Assembly: GCA_017648105.1 (NCBI GenBank)
Contig: JAGCJH010000076.1
Location: 1-52,652 of the forward strand
Direction: 5' to 3'
Length of the DNA stretch: 52,652 nt
Origin: Tidjanibacter sp.
GTDB taxonomy: Bacteria > Bacteroidota > Bacteroidia > Bacteroidales > Rikenellaceae
The translations under genes and the position numbers were made by a program. How positions within the stretch are numbered: position 1 is the first letter of the stretch; each line of letters opens with the position of its first letter. The notes below the pieces were generated by a model, which saw only the letters and a list, made by a program, of their open reading frames with translations, made no database searches and was not told the DNA's origin. This document shows, in pieces, positions 42,133 through 46,381 of the stretch.

Positions 42133-42153
42133 CAAAAATAATCATTATCTTTG
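42133..42153. promoter_or_regulatory. Head-to-head -7 boxes of regulator and kinase genes
   Basis: TATTTTTG on the minus strand (42133-42140) and TATCTTTG on the plus strand (42146-42153) are five bases apart. Each lies where the other promoter's DNA would be melted or contacted, so the two promoters probably exclude each other. Confidence 0.6.
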
Positions 42154-42174
42154 ACATCCGAAAACCGATGGTCG

Positions 42175-43326
42175 ATGAACTCCGAAAGCGAAATATACGA
42201 AATTGCTCCTGCAAAAGCCACCCTCGATAAGCTTAAATTATTGAGGGAGAGTGCGGGTGCGCTTCTGTATAGCACAATAAGGGAGGGCAAAAGGCTACTC
42301 ATAAAGACAACAAAAGACAAGTCGGAGTATCAAATAAGGCTCCTCAGGCGTGAGTGGGAAATCTCCATTGAGTGCAATCACCCGCACATTATCCACACTC
42401 TCTTGCTCGAAGATTTGCCCGACTTGGGTCCATCTATTATTATGGAGTATATCGAGGGATGTACCCTCTCGGAGTGGCTCTCAACAAATCCGCCACAGAA
42501 CGAACGCCGCAGGGTATTTGAGGAGCTATTGACGGCTGTAAACTATCTCCACCAAAGAGGGATTATCCACAACGACCTCAAACCCGACAACATACTCATC
42601 TCTCGTGCAGACAACACACTCAAACTCATAGACTTCGGACTTGCCGATAGCGATGCCCACATTGCACTGCGAAGGCTTGGGTGTACACCAAAATACGCTT
42701 CGCCCGAATTGCAGGCACGGGGAGATGTTGATGCTCGCAGTGACATATATTCCATTGGTGTGATTATGGGCGAGTTGTTTGGCGCTCACCACAAGCGTAT
42801 TGCAGAGCGTTGCACCAAGCAGCAGCCGGTAAAGAGATATGCCAATATAGCAGCCCTGCAACTCACTTGGCAAGGGCGCAACAGAGGTATCAGGATTCTT
42901 GCCGCCTTACTATTGATTGCAATGGTTTTGCCCTCTCTTGCGGAGCGTATTACAGATATTGGCAAGGAGCGCAAACGAGTGGCTCTGATGGAGGAGATAA
43001 ATAGCGAGGTGGAGAATCGCTATATGTTGAGTGCTGACTCCATAAAGATGGCTCACTATCAGGAGTTTGCCGCAATGATTATAAGCCATTTCTACTACGA
43101 TATGTGGCTCTACCACACCACCAAACTACCCACCATTGAGCCGGTCGAACTGCGTGAGAAGGCGACCAACCACTACACCCTCATAGTGAATCCGCTTAAC
43201 CAACAACTCTGGGAAGATGCAACGGCATTACCCTCGGTTCACAACTCCAATTTACCCCGAGAGGAGTTGGATTACTACTTGGAGTTACTCCGCCTTGGCA
43301 AACCCTACGAATCCTATTCGGAGTAG
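42175..43326 (+). CDS. Membrane-anchored Hanks-type Ser/Thr protein kinase
   Basis: From ATG 42175 the protein has 383 residues. Kinase motifs are Lys44 (LLIKTTK), Glu60 (RREWEI), HNDLKPDN (132-139), IDFGLAD with DFG at 153-155, TPKYASPE (171-178) and DARSDIYSIGVIMGEL. The glycine loop is weak (RESAGALLYST), and HND in place of HRD makes it a non-RD kinase, usually not switched on by activation-loop phosphorylation. The catalytic domain is short and ends near 220. One TM segment (about 239-255) follows, then about 125 residues that should be periplasmic, with no recognised domain. An intrinsic terminator follows. Confidence 0.88.
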   Translation: MNSESEIYEIAPAKATLDKLKLLRESAGALLYSTIREGKRLLIKTTKDKSEYQIRLLRREWEISIECNHPHIIHTLLLEDLPDLGPSIIMEYIEGCTLSEWLSTNPPQNERRRVFEELLTAVNYLHQRGIIHNDLKPDNILISRADNTLKLIDFGLADSDAHIALRRLGCTPKYASPELQARGDVDARSDIYSIGVIMGELFGAHHKRIAERCTKQQPVKRYANIAALQLTWQGRNRGIRILAALLLIAMVLPSLAERITDIGKERKRVALMEEINSEVENRYMLSADSIKMAHYQEFAAMIISHFYYDMWLYHTTKLPTIEPVELREKATNHYTLIVNPLNQQLWEDATALPSVHNSNLPREELDYYLELLRLGKPYESYSE

Positions 43327-43387
43327 TTGCAAAAGACAACAAAAGACAACTCCCTCACATTCCTTTTTTACATACCTTTGCAATAGC

Positions 43388-43431
43388 AACAGCCTAAAAA
43401 ACGCCACAAAGGTTGCTGTTTTGATTTTTTT
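43388..43431 (+). terminator. Likely terminator of the kinase gene
   Basis: AACAGCC pairs with GGTTGCTGTT (two-base bulge) over a 16-base loop, followed by TTGATTTTTTT. A -7-like TACCTTTG at 43373-43380 lies just before it, with no gene between. Confidence 0.6.
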
Positions 43432-43443
43432 CTGCTACATTTG
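43413..43443 (+). promoter_or_regulatory. Promoter of the rod-shaped RNA
   Basis: TACATTTG (43436-43443) fits the -7 consensus. TTG within GGTTGCTG (43413-43415), 20 bases upstream, can serve as the -33 box. The predicted start is near 43450. Confidence 0.6.
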
Positions 43444-43449
43444 TAGGAA

Positions 43450-43669
43450 ATATTCGATATACACGCAAGTGTTTGTCACTTCTCGCTGATGAACCTAGGA
43501 AATTCATTTTGTGATAAGAGAGTGAACAAGCCCTTTGTGCGTGTCTGTATATACTGTGTCGGAATAGTATGTGCGGGCATAGCGCAGGCTGTTGCTTCTT
43601 TTCTTTATCACAGGTTTTCCTAGGACCTATTCAGCGGAGATTAAGCAATTAGTCTGCGCTTCTTTTTTT
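43450..43669 (+). ncRNA. Candidate structured RNA, long rod of 6S-like shape
   Basis: The 220-base interval has a promoter, no plausible reading frame, and a near-continuous rod. From outside in the pairings are CGCTGA/TCAGCG, CCTAGGAAA/TTTCCTAGG, TGTGATAA/TTATCACA, GAACAAGCC with GGCTGTTGCTTC, then a 20-pair stem UGUGC..AUACU (43536-43555) with AGUAU..GCGCA, capped by a 10-base loop. The small terminator at 43633-43669 closes it. A single long hairpin with internal loops is how 6S RNA, the RNA-polymerase decoy, looks. tmRNA, RNase P and SRP signatures are absent. The family is not established. Confidence 0.6.
43633..43669 (+). terminator. Terminator of the rod RNA, with GNRA loop
   Basis: AGCGGAGATTAA and TTAGTCTGCGCT form a 12-pair stem (one G-G mismatch) with loop GCAA, followed by TCTTTTTTT. 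Its first bases (AGCG) also belong to the outer stem of the rod, so the two folds compete at the base. Confidence 0.85.
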
Positions 43670-43731
43670 ACTGGCGCAGGCGTAGTTACAGTTCGTACAC
43701 ATACAAGTTTAACTACTAATAATACAAACTT

Positions 43732-44094
43732 ATGGGACTTTTGAACAATTTGATGGACAAATTCAAAAATGCTGAATTTACCGTTGCACCTCAGAAAAAA
43801 CTGAAAACCCTGTCGGCAGACTTCAAAAAGGCTTTTAACCTTTCGCTCGTGTTCTACAAAGGCGTGCAGATTGCCGATGGCGAACTGACCTTGGCTGCTT
43901 TGAACAAGAAAACCACCAAAGATGTGAAATCGACTGCCGATGGCTTGAAGATTAAGGCAAGTATGAAGGTTGGCGATGCCGAGAAGTTGTTTGACGCAAA
44001 CTTCGGCGTAACCGTTCAGATTAAAGATGCAGCTGGCACCAAACTCGTTCCGAATGGTATTACCCTCGGACAGGCAGCACGCGGCGAGTACTAA
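43732..44094 (+). CDS. Small protein of unknown function, paralogue A
   Basis: The 120-residue, lysine-rich, soluble protein has no signal peptide. Two halves each look like strand-helix-strand: APQKKLKTLSADFKKAFNLS..LVFYK (19-44) and ASMKVGDAEKLFDANFGVT..VQIKD (76-98), each followed by a short tail. The protein at 45542 has the same plan and shares LKTL-ADFKK, TLAAL, VG--EK, VQ--D and ITL--A. I do not recognise a function. No promoter is seen in the 62 bases after the RNA terminator, so expression may depend on read-through. A GC-rich hairpin follows. Confidence 0.8.
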   Translation: MGLLNNLMDKFKNAEFTVAPQKKLKTLSADFKKAFNLSLVFYKGVQIADGELTLAALNKKTTKDVKSTADGLKIKASMKVGDAEKLFDANFGVTVQIKDAAGTKLVPNGITLGQAARGEY

Positions 44095-44112
44095 TTTATG
44101 CCACACAATAAT

Positions 44113-44138
44113 CTCGGGGTGCCTGACCGCACCCCGAG
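44113..44138 (+). other. GC-rich hairpin after paralogue A
   Basis: CTCGGGGTGC-CTGACC-GCACCCCGAG is a perfect 10-bp hairpin with no T run. It lies 18 bases past the stop codon. It could stabilise the upstream mRNA or reduce read-through into the next gene. An almost identical arrangement follows paralogue B. Confidence 0.7.
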
Positions 44139-44160
44139 GTACAAAAACTTAATTAGGGAT

Positions 44161-44838
44161 ATGAAGAAAATCTCATTAAGAAAAGACGCAGAAAAGGCGT
44201 TGAAGATGTACGAAAAGTTGGAGCCTTATGGTATCCAAGAGATGCTATTGAAGACACTTGTGAAAAAGTATTCAGACCACACAAATCGTGCAGCAGTTGA
44301 TACAAAGGTGAAGTTGCTTAATCTGTTCTATTCGACAGGCATTCAAGCGGTTAGTAAAATGACCGACAATATCGTTGGAATAAAGGATATCGATGCACGA
44401 CTCGAACAAGGCGATTTGACATTGGTACCTGAAATAGCAACTTTGAAACTACAAGGTGGCGAGCGATTTAACTATTCGTTTGCAACAAAGTATTGTGCGC
44501 TTCATCAGCCTGAAAAGTTCCCTATCTACGATAGCATCGTAGCGGACACATTCGAGAGTCTATTTGTAAAAGGGTATTTTCCCAAATACACTTACAGCCG
44601 ATCAAAGAGCAAATCGCCAAACACCTTTACCAAAGTTGAGTTTGCGGCAAAACTTAAAGAGTACAACTTCTTTGTTGAGTTTTACCATTACTTTATGGAG
44701 TTGTTTGATTTGACCAATCGTACAGTTCGTGAAATTGACTCATATATATGGGGCGCATTTAAGATTGCTGGCGAGGAGTTCGAGATTGAGAAAATGGCAC
44801 AACTCGACAAATCGAAAATTGTAGAATACAGTATCTAA
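44161..44838 (+). CDS. Hypothetical protein, possible DNA glycosylase-like helical fold
   Basis: The 225-residue protein begins MKKISLRKDAEKALKMYEKLEPYG and is mostly helical. YSFATKYCALHQPEKFPIYDS (about 120-140) and VKLLNLFYSTGIQAVSKM stand out. The FATKYxxxHxPEKFPIYDS pattern recalls uncharacterised proteins whose fold resembles helix-hairpin-helix glycosylases, but I cannot confirm this. An in-frame ATG at 44098 exists, but it would translate the 44113-44138 hairpin, so I prefer 44161. The sequence is visibly richer in A/T than flanking genes, suggesting acquisition. Confidence 0.7.
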   Translation: MKKISLRKDAEKALKMYEKLEPYGIQEMLLKTLVKKYSDHTNRAAVDTKVKLLNLFYSTGIQAVSKMTDNIVGIKDIDARLEQGDLTLVPEIATLKLQGGERFNYSFATKYCALHQPEKFPIYDSIVADTFESLFVKGYFPKYTYSRSKSKSPNTFTKVEFAAKLKEYNFFVEFYHYFMELFDLTNRTVREIDSYIWGAFKIAGEEFEIEKMAQLDKSKIVEYSI

Positions 44839-44864
44839 TTAACCATTAAAAACTAAAAAACTTT

Positions 44865-45143
44865 ATGAAAGTTACACCAAATACTAGCAATGCGGCATCT
44901 CTGATTCTAGATGACTTTAAAAAAGAAGCGCAAATTCGCTATTGGCCCAGGAACCCGGAAAATCCTGTTGCAAGAGTGATAGAGTTCCCCAGAGTCTGGC
45001 GTGAGTATGGTAAGCAATATGTAGTACGTAGGTGCTCGTATTCTCACAACGGCGATTGGAGTGACCATATTATAGTAAGGGCACCGTACGGTGTTGAGGT
45101 TGAGACAATGGGTTGTGATCATTGTACTCTGGAACGGTATTAG
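44865..45143 (+). CDS. Hypothetical 92-residue protein, possibly frameshifted
   Basis: The protein MKVTPNTSNAASLILDDFKK..ERY is rich in aromatic and charged residues (RVIEFPRVWREYGKQYVVRRCSYSHNGDWSDHIIV). No domain is recognised. It has an A-rich leader like its neighbours. Its last codons overlap a different open frame (45115-45267) of similar composition, so the gene may have been cut by a frameshift near 45110. Confidence 0.6.
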   Translation: MKVTPNTSNAASLILDDFKKEAQIRYWPRNPENPVARVIEFPRVWREYGKQYVVRRCSYSHNGDWSDHIIVRAPYGVEVETMGCDHCTLERY

Positions 45144-45267
45144 CAACATCAATGGCTTTTGTGCAAAGAACCACCCAAATTTTGAGGTGGAACAAGCATA
45201 CGATATCGAGTGGCACCATAGAGAGATTGACAGCATAGATTTTCACTATTGCATTGTAACAATTTAA
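45115..45267 (+). pseudogene. Short open frame overlapping the 92-residue gene; possible displaced C-terminus
   Basis: From a GTG at 45115 the frame reads about 50 codons (VIIVLWNGISNINGFCAKNH, later VEQAYDIEWHHREIDSIDFHYCIVTI) to a stop at 45265. The hydrophobic start and Glu/His/Asp-rich rest look protein-like. It could be the lost C-terminal part of the preceding gene or a chance frame. Confidence 0.3.
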
Positions 45268-45291
45268 CACTCTCTTATTAAAAATAAAGTT

Positions 45292-45498
45292 ATGGCAAAG
45301 AAATCCGTAATTGCAGGCGAGTATATCTTGTCTGTTTTGGATAGTGGCGGTATTGAAGTTTATCGCATTTACGACAATGTGAAGGGTGCGCTTCGTGAGA
45401 TTGCTGAAAAAGAGGGTTTTGAGTACGACGCAAATTGGACAACCCGTCAGTTTGGCTCTAAACTCATTGATTTCCTGAAAGAAAAGAAAGGTAAATAA
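45292..45498 (+). CDS. Small conserved-looking protein of unknown function
   Basis: The 68-residue protein has a short beta hairpin (AGEYILSVLDSGGIEVYRIYD) followed by helices (VKGALREIAEKEGFEYDANWTTRQFGSKLIDFLKEK). The NVKGALREIAEK-GFEYD-NW-TRQFGSKLIDF pattern seems familiar from small proteins in other bacterial genomes, but I know of no function. It sits between the paralogues with the same A-rich leader type, ATTAAAAATAAAGTT before the ATG. Confidence 0.75.
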   Translation: MAKKSVIAGEYILSVLDSGGIEVYRIYDNVKGALREIAEKEGFEYDANWTTRQFGSKLIDFLKEKKGK

Positions 45499-45541
45499 CA
45501 AACTTTTCAACTATTTATTAACTACTAAAAACTTAAAAACT

Positions 45542-45853
45542 ATGGCAGATTTCAAATTGGACGGCCGTATGAAGGTAAAAACCTTGAAGGCTAATTTCAA
45601 AAAAGAGTTCGGTGCAAGCCTCCGTGTTTACACTACTACCACTTGCAAAACTCCCGCAGATGACGAGAAAACATTGGCAGCACTCCGTGCAGAGGGTTAC
45701 AAAGGTGGCGAGCTCATAGTTGGCGGCAACCTCCATGTTGGTAACTTCGAGAAGAAGATCGCCGAGCTCTACGGCATTGGCGTTCAGGTGGCTGACAAGG
45801 ACGACAAGAAACTCGCAGACAACGACATCACTCTCGTTGCTGCCGGCAAATAA
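45542..45853 (+). CDS. Small protein of unknown function, paralogue B
   Basis: The 103-residue protein repeats the two-half plan of paralogue A: GRMKVKTLKANFKKEFGAS..LRVYT (8-30) and GNLHVGNFEKKIAELYGIG..VQVAD (60-83), ending with NDITLVAAG. The two halves also resemble each other, suggesting an internal duplication. It has no signal or TM segment. Codon use looks more like the host core genes than that of the A/T-rich genes at 44161 and 44865. A GC-rich hairpin follows the stop codon, as with paralogue A. Confidence 0.8.
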   Translation: MADFKLDGRMKVKTLKANFKKEFGASLRVYTTTTCKTPADDEKTLAALRAEGYKGGELIVGGNLHVGNFEKKIAELYGIGVQVADKDDKKLADNDITLVAAGK

Positions 45854-45870
45854 TTGTCCGCACAATTAGG

Positions 45871-45896
45871 TGTGTGGGGCGATCAAGCCCCACACA
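45871..45896 (+). other. GC-rich hairpin after paralogue B
   Basis: TGTGTGGGGC-GATCAA-GCCCCACACA is a perfect 10-bp hairpin with a 6-base loop and no T run, 17 bases past the stop codon. Stem length, loop length, position and lack of T run match the hairpin at 44113-44138, but the sequence differs. Confidence 0.7.
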
Positions 45897-45934
45897 TCAC
45901 AAAAACAACTAACCAAATAAAATAGTTGAGACTT

Positions 45935-46177
45935 ATGAGCAAAGAGTACTACAAAAAGAAGATTATTGACCTCCGTGCCGATATGGCAAAGGAAAAGGAG
46001 GCCAAGAAGCGTGATAACGAGCGCTATGCAAATCTGATTAAAGGCGCATCGTCGCCCACCACCAAGGCAAGCTATCGCAAAAGCAAAATTGATGCAGCGG
46101 CTCGTCACGATCGTAACATCGAGAGCTACAAGCGTCAGATAGAGAGTGCAAAAGAGTCGCTTAAACGCTGCAAATAG
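45935..46177 (+). CDS. Small basic coiled-coil protein
   Basis: The 80-residue protein MSKEYYKKKIIDLRADMAKEKEAKKRDNERYANLIKGASSPTT.. is almost wholly helical and rich in Lys, Arg and Glu. Two helices are split by GASSPTTKASY. I chose ATG 45935 over the in-frame start at 45926, which is not ATG. The next gene starts four bases after the stop codon, so the two are probably translated together. Confidence 0.7.
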   Translation: MSKEYYKKKIIDLRADMAKEKEAKKRDNERYANLIKGASSPTTKASYRKSKIDAAARHDRNIESYKRQIESAKESLKRCK

Positions 46178-46180
46178 GAT

Positions 46181-46381
46181 ATGATATTGACTCTGCTTAT
46201 ACTCATTGTTTGTTGCATAATGTTCGCCACACCGGCCAATGTATCGTTGGTGATCGTGGGGTTGGTGTTTTGGGCTGGAGCTGGATTCGATGCAAAACTT
46301 GGATGCCTCGGACGAATTATCGACTTCATATTATTACTGATAGGTGGCGTATTTGTGGTATTAGGTTTTTGTTTATCCTGA
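46181..46381 (+). CDS. Small two-TM membrane protein
   Basis: The 66-residue protein is two or three hydrophobic segments (MILTLLILIVCCIMFATPANVSLVIVGLVFWAG and IIDFILLLIGGVFVVLGFCLS) around a short loop GFDAKLGCLGR. It follows the coiled-coil gene by four bases. Small membrane partners of this type accompany many stress and defence loci, but nothing here fixes a role. Confidence 0.7.
   Translation: MILTLLILIVCCIMFATPANVSLVIVGLVFWAGAGFDAKLGCLGRIIDFILLLIGGVFVVLGFCLS

Follow-up and report, generated by a model that had tools for sequence, protein, structure and literature searches.

A multi-copy rod-shaped RNA of the class Bacteroidia as a candidate cis-acting leader

Leader attenuators and the expression platforms of riboswitches have a structured 5′ leader in which a terminator-like hairpin and an alternative pairing lie before the start codon. 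A separate 6S RNA with pRNAs has been detected experimentally in Bacteroides thetaiotaomicron, according to PMC7366714. Among the paralogous small RNAs of Bacteroides, FopS is about 65–70 nt long, occurs in nine intergenic, four antisense and one 3′-UTR-derived forms, and acts in trans on susC-like mRNAs, as described in PMC11697453. Here we compare with these systems a rod-shaped RNA noticed in a contig of Tidjanibacter sp. (JAGCJH010000076.1); the whole stretch of DNA analysed, 52,652 nucleotides, is called the window below.

A first-pass annotation had placed a stand-alone RNA, either 6S-like or of a new class, at 43436–43669 of the window (the interval). The TAnnTTTG-type −7 box on which it relied is present as TACATTTG at 43436–43443 of the forward strand, on which the other parts of the element also lie, and is called P2. 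No credible ORF had been seen there, and among ORFs of 40 aa or more the longest wholly within the interval has 44 aa (43489–43623); those merely overlapping its edges have 90 aa (43217–43489), 50 aa (43592–43744) and 159 aa (minus strand, 43627–44106). The rod RNA itself occupies 43464–43663, as supported by its fold, by covariation and by covariance model R1, which scores it at 86.5 bits, the window copy being itself one row of the alignment behind R1. A terminator hairpin belonging to the window's subfamily lies at 43633–43660, with a U run, read as a T run, at 43663–43669. The small-gene cluster said to begin 62 bases downstream indeed starts at 43732 with the presumed regulated gene (43732–44094), whose product of 120 aa has no Pfam family.

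Within this cluster (43732–46381), none of the six proteins searched, from 43732 to 46177, reaches a Pfam cut-off. The product of the first gene has a paralogue encoded at 45542–45853 (36% identity, E 2e-13). Directly upstream of the locus on the same strand, a Ser/Thr protein-kinase-like gene (PF00069) lies at 42151–43326.

The predicted fold of the RNA is unusually stable. The segment 43446–43669 has a minimum free energy (MFE) of −84.2 kcal/mol against a mean of −54.9 (sd 4.3) for shuffled sequences (z −6.83), and none of 200 shuffles was as good. The near-continuous pairing described earlier, CCTAGGAAA with TTTCCTAGG, TGTGATAA with TTATCACA and then a long inner stem, is all contained in this fold, and the sharing of bases between terminator and rod can be located: AGCG of the terminator hairpin is common to the outer stem of the rod in the MFE structure.

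When the window piece was searched by BLAST, two homologues were found within the genus (L002 and L004). A further candidate, L003, was rejected, its match covering the promoter region only, with no R1 match there. Of 100 genomes in the family, 46 matched the L004 RNA used as query, some of them at several places. Model R1, built from 24 members, matched at least 101 of 393 genomes of the order (E 0.01) and at least 15 of 395 genomes in a sample of the phylum (E 0.0001), with 11 of the latter outside the order and in the same class; both surveys scored six candidates per genome, and these genome counts are therefore lower bounds. Deeper scoring of 12 genomes, chosen for their earlier matches, returned 2 to 19 matches each; at least three of these matches lie opposite another match, on the mirror strand, all of them outside the 19-match genome. 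A second model, R2, kept only seven base pairs because the plain alignment had misaligned the helices, and was not used. Carriers confirmed by R1 include Alistipes, Rikenella, Bacteroides faecis, B. fragilis, Dysgonomonas, Proteiniphilum and Parabacteroides, and the second copy in the window's own genome, L014, is more typical than the window copy (180.2 versus 86.5 bits). Pattern matches in six contigs of other phyla and in two viral contigs had no R1 match, and one plasmid record and one weak phage record matched, each by a single query. A contig labelled as a Clostridia MAG (L109) holds a strong R1 copy (180.9 bits) and is possibly mis-binned. For the comparisons below, mirror-strand matches (nine in one search and 12 in another), the cut copy L031 and a duplicate of the window were left out; the resulting 136 matches comprised 121 distinct copies, of which 118 had at least 120 nt downstream and 103 remained after removal of near-duplicates. 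In this 103-member set the RNA is 148–215 nt long.

The covariation check that had been proposed for the locus revealed strong compensatory change in alignments of 24 and 65 sequences. With MAFFT, 24 sequences gave an alignment in which 92.6% of cells pair and 21 of 47 pairs show two-sided changes; the covariation score is 0.445, compared with 0.230 in shuffled and at most 0.142 in slid controls, and there are 130 two-sided cells against 40.1 when shuffled (0 of 500 as many). For 65 diverse sequences aligned with R1, two-sided changes were seen in 41 of 52 pairs, with a score of 0.621 versus 0.240 shuffled, 695 two-sided cells versus 205.9, and 92.2% pairing versus 37–43% in slid controls; this alignment was fitted to the R1 structure and its counts consequently lean towards R1, a bias from which the MAFFT alignment is free. 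The helix that closes the rod, GAAAG(C/U)GU/ACGCUUUC, has all seven pairs in 92 of 103 members (seven when shuffled). After partners had been swapped between members, 87 of 103 still paired fully, against 92 with their own partner, so that this helix is conserved, not covarying. Across most of the 103-member set, it is the rod's own closing helix that precedes the U run, and a T run of at least four follows that helix in 69, compared with seven at a control position. Judged from these alignments, the structure of the RNA is kept by compensatory change, as expected of a cis-regulatory leader RNA.

The position of the copies is equally regular. The ORF comparison took the 111 of 121 distinct copies that are followed by 400 nt or more of sequence; 103 of them have their best downstream ORF on the same strand, at a median of 56 nt past the RNA, six have it on the opposite strand and two have none. 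This steady place just 5′ of same-strand genes is that of a cis-regulatory leader. Of 101 members, 86 carry an exact TAnnTTTG no more than 75 nt upstream, against a mean of 4.6 in shuffled sequences, and the typical layout consists of the P2 box shortly upstream, a hairpin named D about 24 nt past the RNA and the same-strand gene about 50–80 nt downstream. A mobile or DNA-level repeat, a hairpin element that had landed before genes, would also be multi-copy and near-palindromic, and R1 does give weak mirror matches on the other strand. We consider this origin very improbable, however: the orientation to the gene is fixed, the promoter box accompanies most members, divergence between copies carries compensatory changes, and carriage by mobile DNA is slight, the two viral pattern contigs lacking an R1 match and only the plasmid record and the weak phage record remaining.

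The genes downstream of the copies appear unrelated, which would speak against one common metabolic ligand. Among 76 ORFs beginning no more than 130 nt downstream, 49 have an N-terminal hydrophobic segment by a crude rule, and 19 of these also have a lipobox-like site. At positions 1–1310 of L004 (the same region in L143), a rod copy precedes an 88-aa cysteine-rich peptide, possibly a modified-peptide precursor, followed by a gene which we take to be of the radical-SAM-like family.

Further upstream in the window, a second −7-type promoter box, P1 (TACCTTTG, 43373–43380), is followed by element A (AGCAACAGCC, 43385–43394), the exact complement of element B (GGCTGTTGCT, 43587–43596), which is the 3′ strand of the rod's middle. 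A first test, in which matches anywhere in the rod were counted, found complements of at least 9 nt in 50 of 99 members, against 18 in shuffled sequences and 13 direct repeats. Under a looser rule, 53 of 103 members carry element A, and a −7-like box (at least five of six positions) lies 0–25 nt before it in 38 of these 53 (shuffled mean 15.0), the exact box in 18. Since this rule admitted some false members, L055 and L064 among them, the test was rerun at position B with controls: an A-type complement of at least 9 nt to rod fraction 0.50–0.66 was present 30–170 nt upstream in 44 of 101 members, compared with a shuffled mean of 2.1 and with three and one for complements to two other rod parts of equal size. 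The two elements vary together, as with GCAACAACACC and GGTGTTGTTGC in L021. Given the P1-like box just before A, a transcript from P1 would begin at or near A. For an intramolecular A:B switch, folding energies gave no support; forcing the pairing costs a median of 7.6 kcal/mol, against 4.4 for planted controls. In the MFE structures A:B is present in four of 45. The A–B complementarity may serve co-transcriptionally, in protection of the 5′ end or in trans.

These features bear on the proposal that the RNA is 6S-like, which rod shape alone does not settle. The rod has one internal loop, asymmetric, with a median of 9 by 6 nt and located between helices 4 and 5, with helices throughout the rod; the central bubble of 6S RNA is larger. 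The Rfam search that the first-pass annotation had named was carried out, and neither 6S (RF00013) nor 6S-Flavo (RF01685) matched in the window or the interval. For 6S, this held in the interval even at E 10 and in the window's own genome, 82.8% complete, at E 0.001; 6S-Flavo matched none of 16 genomes at E 1, with a model that found only one of 14 control genomes, below the cut-off, which leaves the sensitivity of this genome search uncertain. The sole match of the whole window to Rfam 15 at gathering score was a tRNA. In the interval, at E up to 10, only chance-level matches to Rfam families were returned, such as MIR840 on the rod (18.5 bits, cut-off 150), and no Rfam 15 family fell on the rod in 38 other loci (sets of 2, 12, 20 and 4, with E limits of 10, 5, 2 and 5). 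DUF805b (below its cut-off) and DUF805 elements were seen 3′ of the rod, at 1700–1736 and 1793–1858 of L061 and at 1431–1465 of L043. Flavo-1 (RF01705) matched none of the four rod loci scanned for it, though several of the genomes concerned are rich in it. Genome G821 has 110 Flavo-1 matches and G833 has 116.

An RNA that binds RNA polymerase as 6S does would account for the rod shape, the promoter box and the single internal loop, and P1 transcripts would start with A, which the rod could template through its complement B, in a way that recalls pRNA by analogy. Even so, this reading is hardly credible, and membership of 6S or 6S-Flavo was rejected: neither model matched in the searches above, a genome may hold up to 19 matches, the copies lead genes, and B. 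thetaiotaomicron has another, detected 6S RNA. The alternative offered by the first-pass annotation, a new class, fares better, as the scans of the other loci and the strong covariation both favour it.

The last single-stranded segment of the rod, named C (consensus CAGnnCC), has its partner in the D hairpin of the downstream leader. In the window, C is GTCTGCGCT (43652–43660), and D (43670–43686) contains the complementary GGCGCAGGC (43673–43681), with a predicted energy of −18.2 kcal/mol. Here the pairing is shifted: GGCGCAGGC, directly after the terminator, would form, once transcription has read through, a predicted 9-pair hairpin with the 3′ arm of the terminator itself, so that D would take this arm. 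A first test by duplex energy discriminated poorly because relatives share cores: own pairs had a mean of −13.4 and mismatched pairs −11.8, with 0 of 5000 permutations as low, and the own partner ranked first in 0 of 103 members and within the top 5% in five. It was replaced by a fixed-position test, in which all seven pairs form in 38 of 103 members and at least six in 77, as against 0 of 103 for a control region, 3.2 for shuffled cores and 7.2% for C with the D of members with another core. Of the 38 members with all seven pairs, 29 have D at 20–25 nt past the RNA, and none of the seven positions keeps a single pair type across members. This rule was derived from members of the order; among 15 members from other orders, which had no part in it, seven pairs formed in six and at least six in eight, the eight including two with an atypical spacing (8 and 10 nt). 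Fewer than six pairs form in 26 of 103 members of the order and in seven of 15 outgroup members. Segment C is predicted to be unpaired with a probability of 0.81, against 0.27 for the whole rod, and exceeds 0.5 in 91 of 103. The D hairpin has a stem of at least six pairs in 52 of 77 members (shuffled 18.2) and of at least five in 70 of 77 (shuffled 40.5).

Copies within one genome allow the C–D contact to be compared between sister loci. At least six of seven pairs form in 16 of 19 copies of G082 and 14 of 15 of G376, and in each genome none of 5000 permutations did as well as the own pairings. The own partner is best or tied best within the genome in only seven of 19 and six of 15 copies, respectively, the copies sharing cores; G376 has six distinct C cores across its 15 copies. 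Such sharing would make cross-talk possible, and it suits a rival view in which the rod is chiefly a stable trans-acting RNA, regulatory or a protein sponge, whose C binds D loops both on the mRNA of its own locus and on those of sister loci, while the gene merely shares the locus. The promoter box, the terminator-like end and the exposure of C in the predicted rod are consistent with this as well. The steady position just 5′ of a same-strand gene speaks against it, and C and D fit better within a locus than between loci, even inside one genome, which favours contact in cis. We regard a mainly trans-acting role as unlikely, yet as a serious rival.

Taken together, comparison of the members brings out a conserved rod, a terminator-like end, a leader position and covarying C–D and A–B pairs. 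Our preferred reading of these sequence features, to which we assign a probability of roughly 55%, is a multi-copy cis-acting leader RNA of the class Bacteroidia that terminates transcription unless read through, with C–D shaping the read-through mRNA. RNA polymerase starting from P2 would make the rod and mostly stop at the U run, leaving a short stable RNA. Read-through would produce the mRNA, in which D could capture C (in the window, from the terminator's 3′ arm) and lock the read-through fold about 25 nt upstream of the start codon, as estimated from medians. The read-through fraction would then set expression of the gene, tuned by a binder of the conserved internal loops or by use of P1. 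The comparative data favour what the first-pass annotation had suggested last, a possible switch controlling the downstream genes. Since D is transcribed after the U run, D itself could not block termination within the same pass.

At the sequence level, the putative terminator consists of the closing helix and the T run counted above, and D is predicted to take a terminator arm in the window and, by position, not elsewhere. As judged from the fixed position of C, C–D is clear of the closing helix outside the window's subfamily and may therefore act on translation or stability. This leads to a second serious rival, a leader in which the rod and the D hairpin form a pseudoknot that governs ribosome access or decay, the U run being no terminator in vivo. 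It is compatible with the coexistence of C–D and rod in those members, and D, at the distance estimated from medians, lies close to where a typical Bacteroides 5′ UTR would begin, the commonest length of such a UTR being 23 nt (PMC7366714). The closing helix immediately preceding the U run argues for termination instead, and we hold translational or stability control to be somewhat less likely than the trans-acting role.

A wider picture may tentatively be drawn, in which tandem promoters, rod, terminator and a private C–D lock make up a portable module, a class-wide RNA control layer of Bacteroidia set before many unrelated, often secreted or lineage-specific genes; the 5′ end A of the P1 transcript and the leader loop D would both compete for the rod's 3′ half. 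The copies suggest that a major gut phylum has a large regulon so far missing from annotation, with each copy marking a gene that is probably under one common control signal. With model R1 and the C–D rule, copies can be located in genomes. The conserved internal loops flanking a UAGGAAA-type helix, as read from the alignments, are candidate binding sites for a factor.

Among described systems, FopS and GibS, the paralogous sRNAs of Bacteroides described in PMC11697453, are likewise multi-copy and have Bacteroides-type promoters, but the rod RNA, unlike FopS, is 148–215 nt long and placed before a gene. Within the open-licence literature searched, the rod RNA is undescribed, though it could be present without a name among the many candidates listed in PMC8040213 or among the structured 5′ elements described in PMC9723704. 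Flavo-1 and DUF805/DUF805b (RF03081, RF02914) are, like the rod, Bacteroidota RNA motifs, and Flavo-1 is also multi-copy; the DUF805-type matches fall outside the rod, following it in L061 and L043. The DUF805 motif reportedly goes back to Weinberg 2017. With 6S and 6S-Flavo the rod shares its long shape, a closing stem, a promoter box of its own and an internal loop, and it differs in matching neither covariance model, in being multi-copy and in standing before genes. Closest are the leader attenuators and riboswitch expression platforms, since the rod is a structured leader with a terminator-like hairpin and an alternative pairing. In contrast to these, one fold precedes many unrelated genes, with up to 19 matches per genome, and the rod has its own promoter box, the complement A upstream and the loop D downstream. 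To our knowledge, no RNA class described so far is flanked on both sides in this way, and we place the rod RNA as a new class within a known kind, the structured leader RNAs.
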